Part shown: in pieces, positions 1 to 4,294 of the stretch
Layout: every line of letters starts with the position of its first letter
Numbering within the stretch: position 1 is the stretch's first letter
NCBI GenBank assembly: GCA_905182585.1
Contig: CAJJCC010000033.1
Location: 1 to 43,647 of the forward strand
Direction: 5' to 3'
DNA length: 43,647 nt
From: an uncultured Flavobacteriales bacterium
GTDB lineage: Bacteria; Bacteroidota; Bacteroidia; Flavobacteriales_C; GCA-002722245
Notes under the pieces: model-generated
Databases searched by the model: none
The model's input: only the letters and a program-made list of their open reading frames with translations
What the model was told of the DNA's origin: nothing
Position numbers and translations under genes: made by a program

Positions 1-510
1 GAGCACAGGATCCACAAACAAAATAATTAACGTTAGTGAAGCTGGAACTTATATTGCCACTGTTACGGATTTAAATGGTTGTGAAAACCGAGATTCAATC
101 ACTTTGTCGTTTTATTCTCTTCCAAATTTTGATTTAGGTCCAGATACAACAATTTGTTCTGGAGATAACAAGCTATTAAATGCAGGAGAGGAATGGGAGA
201 GTTATTCTTGGAGCACAGGATCAACAACAAAAACAATTAATGTTAGCGAACCTGGAACTTATACTGTTATTGTTACCGATTCTGACGGTTGTCAAGGCTC
301 TGAAAATGTTAACATCTCAGTTTCAGTACAAGATTTCGATTTAGGCAATGATACAACTGTTTTTAATTTAGATTCTTTTTCATTGGATGCAGGAGAGGGT
401 TGGATTAGTTATGTTTGGGCTAATGAAGAAACAACTCAGGTAATTACTGTTGAATCAGGTGGCGTTTATTATGTTACTGTAACGAATTCATTTGGATGTG
501 AGTTGAGTGA
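1..510 (+). repeat. 210-bp tandem coding repeat (Ig-like units)
   Basis: The DNA starting at base 1 (gagcacagga...) recurs at 211 with the same opening decamer and close similarity for about 87 bases. A more diverged third unit lies near 421. The period of 210 bases equals 70 residues. This indicates duplication of the Ig-like unit, the first two copies being the more recent; more copies may lie upstream of the window. Confidence 0.75.
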
Positions 511-3500
511 TAGTTTAACTGTTACGTTGAGTTCCGAAGGAAATTGTTTTGCCGCTTTTGGTTATGAATCTGATAGTACTCATGTTTCTTTCACCAATAA
601 TTCGCAAGGTCTTTACACAGGCGTTCATTATGATTTTGGGGATGGAACTTCATCTAATCTTGATAACCCTGTTAAATCGTATAATCAATCAGGAACATAT
701 TCAGTATGTATAAATATTTTTGATAGTCTTACAGGGTGTGTTTCCGACTCTTGTTATTCAATAACAGTTTTGAAAGATACAAGCGAAGCTTTTTGTCAAG
801 CAGACTTTGAATTTACTTCAATAGGAGCTAAAAAGTTTGCTTTTTACAATACATCTATAGGTGATGGCACTGATGTGAAATGGGAATTTAACGGAGGAGA
901 AAATATAGTTAGATCGGATAGTACTGAATTCGAATTTCCGAACTCCGGATATTTTGAAGTTTGTTTAAGTGTTTACGATTCTTTTTCAAATTGTTTTAAT
1001 TCGATTTGTAAAACAATTGAAGTTGTTGATACAAATAGTGTGAATTGTCGTGCGGATTTTGATTTTTTCATTCAAAATACAGGAGAGGTTTTCTTTAATT
1101 CAAAAGCATTAGGTTCTTACAGTTCTGTTTATTTCTCTCTGGGAGACGGGATTTCAAAAGATACCTCAACATTTGGTTACAGTTATCAAAACTCTGGTCA
1201 TTATGAAGTATGCATGTCTGTTTATGATGCGCCTTCTGGTTGCCAAGATCAATACTGTGAACTAGTTGTCGTTAATTTGGATACATCTTCTCTGTTTTGT
1301 GAGGCAAAGATGGATGGTTTTGTAGATTCTGAAAATATTGCACATGCGATAAACCAATCTATCGGAGATTATACACATGCACATTGGGGTTTTGGAGACG
1401 GTAGCCAATCGTTTGAAAACAGTCCAACACATGAATTTCTTGCGTCCGGTTACTACAACATCTGTTTAAACATACACGATTCAGTATCAGGCTGTCAATC
1501 TTCCATTTGTGAAGAAGTAAACATAGAATTAGATTCATTGGCTGTTAACTGTTTAGCGGATTTTGAATTTATTGTAATAGATGAAGAGGTGACCTTTAAG
1601 AACATTTCTTTAGGAGGTAATTCCCACATGCATTGGTCATTTGGCGATGGATCGTACGATGATGGATCACCCGTTTCGTATAATTACAGGGAAACAGGCG
1701 TTTATGAAGTATGCTTATCCACTTGGGATAGTATTTCCGGTTGTCAGGCAACAGTTTGTAAACAAGTTTCCATTGTAAAAGACACGAATACTGTGTTTTG
1801 CTCGGCTAGCTTCGATTACATTCCGTTATCCAATGGAGAGATACAATTTAAGGATGCATCGATAGGGAACTATACGAATGTTCATTGGGATTTAGGAAAT
1901 GGTATATTCTCGGATAGTACTTCTCCAAAAGGGATTTATCCAAACAATGGTGTGTACCCTGTAACGGTAATGATTTGGGATAGCATTTCAAATTGTCAAT
2001 CGTCTTACAAAAAAGAAATAGCGATTGCTATTCATGAAGATTTAGTTGAATGTCATGCGAAATTCGAATTCTTCCCAATAAATGATTCCCTTGTTAAGTT
2101 TAAGAGTGTTTCACAAGGAGCTCATACAAATATCAATTGGGATTTTGGCGATGGAACTTTTTCCGAAGGGCAAAGTGAAGTTGAGCATATTTTCCCTCAT
2201 GGTGGTTTCTTTACTGTTTGTGTTGGTATTTACGACAATCAAACAGGTTGTCATGACTTAGTGTGCGATAATGTAGTCTTGTTAAAAGATACAGCAGTTG
2301 TTGATTGTCATGCTAATTTTGAATTTTTCCCAACCAATGGTTCAGAAGTAGTATTCAATAACGTTTCAGAAGGAACGTTTACGAAGTCTTTCTGGAAGTT
2401 TAGTACAGGGGTGTCAAGTTATGATGAACACCCAACGGTTAACTTTAAAGCTGGAGGGTTATATGGCGCTTGTTTAACCGTGTTTGACTCCGTTTTAGGA
2501 TGCCAGGATAAGTATTGTGCAGAAGTACCAATTATTGATGATACTACAAGTTATTGTGATGCACATTATGAATACTATATGGATTCCAGAACGGTTAATT
2601 TTTACCCAGAAATAAAGGGTGATATTACAGGCTGGATTTGGGATTATGATGATGGATTCAACTCAAATGATTCCTTTCCATCGCATACTTATGAAGAGGA
2701 TGGGGTTTATCAAGTTTGTTTAACAGTATACGATTCTTTAACCGGCTGTTTTAATACCTACTGCGATGCGATTTCAGTACTTGGAGATGTTACTCAATTG
2801 GATGACTATGTAAATGCAGACTTCACTTACTTCTTAGATCCAATTGATGGTAAGGTGTACTTTAAAGATGAGTCCGTAGGAAATCCAAGTAGTTGGTATT
2901 GGGATTTCGGAGATGGAGATTCGGCAGGTGTATATCAAAACCCATCATATGAGTATACTGAGGATGGATTTTATGAAGTGTGTTTAACGGTTAAAAATTC
3001 AAATAGTGGACAAGAGTCTAAGTGTGAAGTAATCTCAGTAGGAGATGTTTCAGATGCTTGTTATGCTAAGTTTGATTTTTACGCAAATGCTGTAACAGCT
3101 ACAGCTCACTTTGATAATAACACACTAGGGAGGATTACGGGTTACGATTGGGATTTTGGGGACTCAATTACATCTTTCCAATATCAGCCCGTCCATTCTT
3201 ATGCGGACACAGGGTTCTATCCAGTATGTTTAACAGTAAGGAATGATTCAGGTTGTATAAGAACATTCTGTAATGAAATAAGAGTAGGTAATGCTTTAGA
3301 AAATAAATGTCTTATTGGATGTGTATGGCCTGGAGATGCTAACTTGGATTTAGAGTCAAATCATTATGACATTTTACCAATGGGATTACATTACGGTGAA
3401 ACAGGTCCAAATAGAGAAGAGTCATCAAATGATTGGAGAGGTCATGAATCACAAGATTGGTCATCTAATCTTTGGGGTGATGTGAACAATAAACATGGTG

Positions 3501-4294
3501 ATGCAAATGGTGATGGGATAATTAATTTTTCAGATATTGAAATTATCGAAACTAATTTCGCTTATTCTCATCCTTGGCAGCCAAGAGCTCAAGCTGCTAA
3601 TCAATTATCTATCGATTGGGATGTGGATGACATTGATGTTGGTGAAACAGCTGTTTTAACGGTATCTGTTCCGGATTCAATTAATGTAACAATGTATGGT
3701 TTAGGATTTGAAATTGATTTAGATCCAGCAGTATTTGATTACGGAACAATTAGATATGATTTCGAAGGTTCTTGGCTAGGTACTGAGGGTGATGACTTAA
3801 TTACATTCGGGTTAGAAAACGAAGACCTAGGTCAAATCTATATTGCTGAATCTAGAAACGATCACAATGAGTTAAATGGAAATGGTGAACTAGTTAAGAT
3901 TTATGTAACCGCAAAAGCGAATTCTTCAAATACTGGAGCAATTTTAACAACTGAAGGTGGAATTACCGCGGAGGGAGATACGGTAAGTTTTGCAGGTGAA
4001 GTTGAAGAAGCAAGTGTAAACAGTATTGAAGAAAGAGGTGACTATTTAGTTAAGGATTTAAAAGTTTTTCCAAATCCAACTACTAATCAAATCTTATTTA
4101 ATTTACCAATAGGAACAACTACAGAATACATAATTGAGTTGTATGATAACGTTGGAGCATTGGTTTACTCAACTTCACAAATGAATGGAGGTTTAGTAAC
4201 ACAGAACCTTAAAGATTACCACTCTGGAGTTTATACAATTCAGGTTTCAAGTGATAAAGTAAAGTATATGCAAAAAGTAATTGTAACGAAATAG
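2..4294 (+). CDS. Giant T9SS-secreted surface protein with Ig-like and PKD repeats, dockerin-like and cohesin-like modules (5' end outside window)
   Basis: The frame is open from base 2, so the gene begins upstream; 1430 residues are visible. In order they show about two and a half Ig-like units of 70 residues (about 2-540) with the pattern 'Y.WSTG.TT..I.V...GTY.V.VTD..GC'. Eleven PKD repeats follow (about 545-3295), several with WDFGDG cores. A dockerin-like module lies at about 3320-3580, with calcium-loop motifs GDANLDLESNHYD and GDANGDGIINFSD. A cohesin-like beta domain follows (about 3600-4020), then a type A T9SS sorting tail from 'VFPNPTTNQ' (about 4065) to 'KVIVTK'. Most PKD repeats carry four cysteines. 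PKD and Ig modules usually form extended adhesive rods, and the tail predicts export by T9SS and cell-surface attachment. The ligand is unknown. The family type is clear; the adhesin role is inferred. Confidence 0.9.
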   Translation, partial: STGSTNKIINVSEAGTYIATVTDLNGCENRDSITLSFYSLPNFDLGPDTTICSGDNKLLNAGEEWESYSWSTGSTTKTINVSEPGTYTVIVTDSDGCQGSENVNISVSVQDFDLGNDTTVFNLDSFSLDAGEGWISYVWANEETTQVITVESGGVYYVTVTNSFGCELSDSLTVTLSSEGNCFAAFGYESDSTHVSFTNNSQGLYTGVHYDFGDGTSSNLDNPVKSYNQSGTYSVCINIFDSLTGCVSDSCYSITVLKDTSEAFCQADFEFTSIGAKKFAFYNTSIGDGTDVKWEFNGGENIVRSDSTEFEFPNSGYFEVCLSVYDSFSNCFNSICKTIEVVDTNSVNCRADFDFFIQNTGEVFFNSKALGSYSSVYFSLGDGISKDTSTFGYSYQNSGHYEVCMSVYDAPSGCQDQYCELVVVNLDTSSLFCEAKMDGFVDSENIAHAINQSIGDYTHAHWGFGDGSQSFENSPTHEFLASGYYNICLNIHDSVSGCQSSICEEVNIELDSLAVNCLADFEFIVIDEEVTFKNISLGGNSHMHWSFGDGSYDDGSPVSYNYRETGVYEVCLSTWDSISGCQATVCKQVSIVKDTNTVFCSASFDYIPLSNGEIQFKDASIGNYTNVHWDLGNGIFSDSTSPKGIYPNNGVYPVTVMIWDSISNCQSSYKKEIAIAIHEDLVECHAKFEFFPINDSLVKFKSVSQGAHTNINWDFGDGTFSEGQSEVEHIFPHGGFFTVCVGIYDNQTGCHDLVCDNVVLLKDTAVVDCHANFEFFPTNGSEVVFNNVSEGTFTKSFWKFSTGVSSYDEHPTVNFKAGGLYGACLTVFDSVLGCQDKYCAEVPIIDDTTSYCDAHYEYYMDSRTVNFYPEIKGDITGWIWDYDDGFNSNDSFPSHTYEEDGVYQVCLTVYDSLTGCFNTYCDAISVLGDVTQLDDYVNADFTYFLDPIDGKVYFKDESVGNPSSWYWDFGDGDSAGVYQNPSYEYTEDGFYEVCLTVKNSNSGQESKCEVISVGDVSDACYAKFDFYANAVTATAHFDNNTLGRITGYDWDFGDSITSFQYQPVHSYADTGFYPVCLTVRNDSGCIRTFCNEIRVGNALENKCLIGCVWPGDANLDLESNHYDILPMGLHYGETGPNREESSNDWRGHESQDWSSNLWGDVNNKHGDANGDGIINFSDIEIIETNFAYSHPWQPRAQAANQLSIDWDVDDIDVGETAVLTVSVPDSINVTMYGLGFEIDLDPAVFDYGTIRYDFEGSWLGTEGDDLITFGLENEDLGQIYIAESRNDHNELNGNGELVKIYVTAKANSSNTGAILTTEGGITAEGDTVSFAGEVEEASVNSIEERGDYLVKDLKVFPNPTTNQILFNLPIGTTTEYIIELYDNVGALVYSTSQMNGGLVTQNLKDYHSGVYTIQVSSDKVKYMQKVIVTK
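545..3295 (+). repeat. Eleven tandem PKD-domain coding repeats
   Basis: The units are about 82-87 residues long. Each typically begins C.A.F.F, continues through a W.FGDG-like core, then Y.VCL.V.DS.(S/T)GC and ends .C..I.V. Nine of eleven units keep all four cysteines at equivalent positions. Unit 6 (from about 1800) and unit 10 (from about 2815) each lack a different pair. Divergence between units is high, so the array is old compared with the Ig-like repeats upstream. Confidence 0.85.

Follow-up and report, generated by a model that had tools for sequence, protein, structure and literature searches.

The eleven PKD units of a repeat protein encoded at the contig edge of an uncultured Flavobacteriales bacterium are very probably T9SS-secreted, extracellular domains, each of which normally holds two independent intradomain disulfides, C1-C3 and C2-C4. 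This connectivity, proposed earlier by the sequence-only reading, is strongly supported by the paired loss of cysteines (~750-1,166 units, replicated), by coevolution (mutual information ranks 1 and 3) and by the strand extents of AlphaFold models (11 units). Disulfide formation itself is predicted from sequence, and the bridges would be expected to withstand unfolding or proteolysis in the extracellular space.

A PKD array with four cysteine columns

The window, meaning the whole stretch of DNA that was analysed, comprises 43,647 nt of contig CAJJCC010000033.1 (assembly GCA_905182585.1; GTDB GCA-002722245). Its repeat-protein ORF encodes, in this order, an Ig-like N-terminal part, eleven PKD units, a dockerin-like segment and a T9SS type A sorting tail. 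The PKD array spans 545-3304 with units of 82-86 aa (n = 11) and matched Pfam PF18911 PKD_4 (E 8e-89, 292 bits, curated cut-off 27) as well as PF00801 PKD (E 4e-51, 171 bits, curated cut-off 23.5). The sorting tail passed both of its cut-offs, with 37 bits for Por_Secre_tail (cut-off 27) and 44.7 bits for TIGR04183 (cut-off 23). An NCBIfam match to TIGR00864, 'polycystin cation channel', lay far under its cut-off and was rejected, as it merely reflects the PKD repeats.

Four cysteine columns were defined per unit: C1 is the first residue, C2 lies at about 55-57, C3 at 65-67 and C4 at 70-72. An alternative N-terminal cysteine about 5-14 residues after C1 (e.g. GCSPLTV; GCxPLTVxF) was termed C1'. 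The features are as follows.

2..4294, + strand: repeat-protein ORF, 1430 aa translated from 2-4291, 5' end truncated at the contig edge
545..793, + strand: PKD unit 1, four cysteines (1, 55, 65, 70)
794..1045, + strand: PKD unit 2, four cysteines
1046..1297, + strand: PKD unit 3, four cysteines
1298..1549, + strand: PKD unit 4, four cysteines
1550..1798, + strand: PKD unit 5, four cysteines; the G004 ortholog lacks C2 and C4
1799..2050, + strand: PKD unit 6, only C1 (1799-1801) and C3 (1994-1996)
2051..2305, + strand: PKD unit 7, four cysteines
2306..2554, + strand: PKD unit 8, four cysteines
2555..2812, + strand: PKD unit 9, four cysteines; modelled alone
2813..3058, + strand: PKD unit 10, only C2 (2981-2983) and C4 (3023-3025); C1 and C3 lost
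3059..3304, + strand: PKD unit 11, four cysteines
4064..4285 (aa 1355-1428), + strand: Por_Secre_tail / T9SS type A sorting domain, profile match

Translation of 2-4291(+) confirmed exactly what had been read from the sequence, namely that nine of the eleven units have all four cysteines and that the remaining two have complementary losses, with just C1/C3 left in unit 6 and just C2/C4 left in unit 10. In unit 6 the C2 site (1964-1966) encodes Thr (YPVTV) and the C4 site (2009-2011) Lys (SSYKKE). The complementary losses in units 6 and 10 exceed chance: they are kept in congeners, and the same two patterns occur in homologues.

Upstream of the array (2-544) lie Ig-like units with weak Ig_7 / Ig_2 matches. 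One of them has cysteines at aa 52 and 97, like C1'/C3, and the next has a single cysteine at aa 166, its N-terminal cysteine position reading TVF. Downstream, positions 3305-3700 (KCLIGCVWPGDANLD...GDANGDGIINFSDIEII) gave a Dockerin_1 match below threshold, and the segment between this dockerin-like part and the T9SS tail had no Pfam match. The neighbouring genes (window 4728-33129) look ordinary from their NCBIfam matches, including hemL, MutS, SppA and alaS together with matches for an OmpA-like lipoprotein and an OlsH-like protein.

Paired loss of cysteines in homologous units

Correlated loss among homologous units had been suggested as a check of the proposed connectivity. A first set was taken from 65 loci picked by the window profile and 20 picked by PF18911, and homologous units were realigned to the profile with every cysteine masked, so that unit detection was independent of cysteine. 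Among 417 complete units, 348 had both C2 and C4, 69 had neither and none was discordant; discordance was likewise zero across all 578 units of this set that cover the hairpin. A replicate set was obtained by scanning named genomes of Flavobacteriales, Bacteroidales, Chitinophagales, Chlorobiota and some archaea for non-cysteine peptide patterns, with removal of units already counted. Its 588 hairpins comprised 188 with both cysteines, 397 with neither and three discordant cases. Two of the latter (L239 and L242) are alignment shifts with C4 a few residues downstream, and the third, the archaeal L276 from Methanospirillum, is a genuine lone C4. Across all 1,166 hairpins, C2 and C4 were thus both present in 561, both absent in 602 and discordant in three.

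Tabulation of the four columns showed that the pairs are lost as C1+C3 or as C2+C4. A pattern in which C1 disappears together with C2, or together with C4, no less frequently than with C3 had been named beforehand as speaking against the connectivity. It was not found: among 750 complete units, 221 of the 222 with two cysteines retained either C1+C3 (C1'+C3 included) or C2+C4, the sole other one being the alignment shift in L242. In line with this, phi was 0.009 for C1-C2 and also for C1-C4 (417 complete units).

Pairing of C1 with C3 is looser. Phi was 0.565 for C1-C3 in the 417 complete units of the first set and 0.841 for C1/C1'-C3 in 333 units of the replicate set. When C1 or C1' was counted over 750 units, 631 units had both partners, 79 had neither and 40 were discordant (phi 0.767). 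Co-occurrence of C1/C1' and C3 is a strong tendency and no strict rule, with about 5% of units discordant. C1' was paired with C3 in 65 of the 750 units, where C2-C4 was almost always missing, and presumably forms the same bridge from another strand position. The exceptions are explained in part by C1' and by displaced C1: in L139, L145 and L132, C1 is shifted upstream or an insertion follows it. In the remainder, which includes L136, L138, L148 and L149, C3 is present with no visible partner cysteine.

The terminal units of L148 and L149, which are related and belong to the sister genus, keep C2, C3 and C4 and miss C1. A further pattern was seen in L096 (G032:C82; ORF on the - strand, frame 2), where C1 is followed by a second cysteine about 9 residues later and C3 is missing, which looks as though C1 bonded C1'.

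Coevolution, hairpin register and alternative explanations

Mutual information with APC was calculated for 2,560 column pairs from 748 distinct units (Neff 542), with C1' counted as C1. The top-ranked pair was C2-C4 (z 44), and C1-C3 came third (z 12); both ranks were unchanged when C1' units were omitted. The alternative pairings C1-C2, C1-C4 and C2-C3 stayed at background level, ranking 1314th, 1494th and 321st, respectively. The non-cysteine pairs 52:75, 58:69 and 60:67 each sum to 127, exactly like C2:C4 (56+71), and so define the F-G hairpin register in which C2:C4 falls. Pairs 4:72, 4:70 and 6:75 place strand A beside strand G, so that residue 1 comes close to the beginning of G, the site of C3.

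The model of unit 9, for which the 11 window units served as alignment, reached a pLDDT of 90.8. Its strands F and G extend over residues 50-60 and 65-75, so that residues 55 (C2) and 70 (C4) are opposite each other. Foldseek aligned this model to the solved Vibrio PKD1 domain 6aem with a TM of 0.80, and the best solved fold matches were the Vibrio PKD1 domains 6aem and 4l9d (TM about 0.8). In an AlphaFold model of the 920-aa array, the extents of strands F and G bring the C2 and C4 positions face to face in each of the eleven units, including unit 6, which lacks both cysteines. Judging from the core alternation of Tyr52, Val54, Leu56 and Val58, the C2-C4 pair is expected to face outwards. The idea of a rigid rod gained no support, as the array model (pLDDT 71.9, pTM 0.25, linkers below 50) is uninformative on rod geometry.

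We propose that C2, on the exposed face of strand F, bonds C4 on strand G straight across the F-G hairpin, and that C1, residue 1 at the entrance to the domain, is bonded to C3 at the F-G turn or start of strand G. The C1-C3 bridge would anchor the linker exit on the final strand. Loss of either bridge would leave the fold intact, and a lone cysteine would be disfavoured, which could explain why both cysteines of a bridge are lost together.

It is very unlikely that the four cysteines are free or bind metal, with the covarying pairs as two metal half-sites. Covariation alone does not distinguish a disulfide from a metal site, and neither DsbB nor VKOR, both of which were looked for, was found in any of the ten family genomes (G000-G009). 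DsbA, however, is encoded in the window's genome and in 7 of these 10. In addition, separable two-cysteine pairs that lack conserved His or Asp partners make poor metal sites, the four cysteines, and no other columns, were invariant across 17 diverse units, and C2 and C4 are directly opposite in the hairpin, a geometry suited to a disulfide. Periplasmic disulfides in Bacteroidota are documented for SprF-GldK (PMC12635249). DsbB and VKOR were not found in any of the 10 genomes although extracellular proteins such as the PKD-array protein are cysteine-rich. DsbA without detected DsbB or VKOR in the closest genomes raises the question of the oxidant.

Bonds between domains or molecules, such as C1 of one unit with C3 of the preceding one, which would weld the array or cross-link filaments, are similarly improbable. 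C1 does adjoin the inter-unit linker, and C1 covaries with C3 of the previous unit (phi 0.50). The value within a unit is higher, however (phi 0.83 for C1-C3), and where neighbours differ in C3, C1 tracked its own unit in 40 cases and the previous unit in 9. Moreover, window unit 10 lacks its own C3 as well as C1 although unit 9 retains C3, and C2 is opposite C4 inside one hairpin.

We also followed the losses among relatives. The array is present in four genomes of the window's genus, and in every array-bearing congener the orthologs of unit 6 lack C2+C4 and those of unit 10 lack C1+C3 (84 units). Additional C2+C4 losses occur in other units of the congeners. Compared with the window over 32 residues, the unit 5 ortholog of G004 shows three differences only, at C2, at C4 and one Thr/Ile exchange; the cysteine codons are each one nucleotide apart (TGC vs TTC for C2, TGT vs AGT for C4). 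In a second, tandem G004 copy, the last unit (a copy of unit 11) has Arg at C2 and Tyr at C4, again one nucleotide per cysteine codon away from a cysteine-bearing relative. C3, which is situated between C2 and C4, is retained in both cases. The first unit of the second copy is an exception, having C1 without C3. This tandem paralog (L206 5199-7700, G004:C123) has one unit fewer, with units 7 and 8 fused around CHANFEFF.

Parsimony on the unit tree counted 31 changes in C2/C4, 16 in C1 and 16 in C3, with only three independent pairs on well-supported branches. As the tree is poorly supported, independent losses can be counted only roughly; the pairing itself is unaffected. Clustering at 40% identity gave 24 clusters with C1+C3-only units and 7 with C2+C4-only units, and four-cysteine units are mixed with C1+C3-only units in 39 of 171 genes and with C2+C4-only units in 14 of 171. 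That paired loss reflects mere shared ancestry or block copying among repeats, with no bond, is hardly credible: the repeats are related, many losses are inherited (unit 6 and unit 10 orthologs) and support for the unit tree is weak, but the recent G004 losses are independent, arose through separate differences at both codons and spared the intervening C3, the two-cysteine patterns recur in many dissimilar units, and C3 covaries weakly with both C2 and C4 despite lying between them.

Possible mechanical role and comparison with known PKD domains

The two intradomain bridges might act differently under load. C1 would mark the entry of the chain and C3 the start of the last strand, so that a C1-C3 bond would let a pulling force bypass about residues 2-64, and C2-C4 would merely staple the hairpin. 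Within the window array, C1-C3 is missing from unit 10 alone, and a matching unit without it is present in all four congeners. It is tempting to speculate, though rather doubtful, that the bridges have different mechanical jobs, with C1-C3 limiting extension to about a dozen residues and the clamp-less penultimate unit 10 serving as an extensible element, or fuse, conserved within a surface string that otherwise cannot stretch. The missing C1-C3 of unit 10 may simply be one inherited loss.

PKD repeats are frequent in secreted surface proteins of Bacteroidota, and the solved relatives in the alignments are without any of these cysteines. The phylum-wide covariation, nearly exception-free for C2-C4, provides a bond assignment as well as a sequence rule by which the subtype can be recognised. 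Folding, oxidation and the mechanical role of such surface strings thereby become directly testable.

The two predicted disulfides define a PKD subtype for which a prior description was not found, which is no proof of absence. No PDB precedent for the four cysteines appeared among the top alignments from two profiles, which rank above weaker matches such as 9wt0, and disulfide-bearing PKD repeats of Bacteroidota were not described in the accessible part of the open literature. The window units share family and fold with the Pfam PKD domains PF18911/PF00801. Those PKD structures that were aligned by HMMER (ColH, an archaeal S-layer protein and PKD1 of PrtV) have no cysteine at the four columns. 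The PKD domains of the collagenases ColG/ColH have the same fold and are among the best solved sequence matches; in contrast to the window units, the aligned ColH stretch has no cysteine, and calcium is bound in at least one solved case (4aqo). The neighbouring Ig-like units at the N end of the same ORF, which weakly match the CHU_C-associated Ig-like domain Ig_7 (PF19081), likewise have an N-terminal cysteine and a GC near their end. Unlike the PKD units, these Ig-like units are without the WDFGDG motif and without C2/C4, and one in the window has a lone cysteine. In the C1'+C3 PKD units of Bacteroidota, whose N-terminal cysteine sits ~5-14 residues later, the N-terminal region would likewise be joined to the F-G turn.
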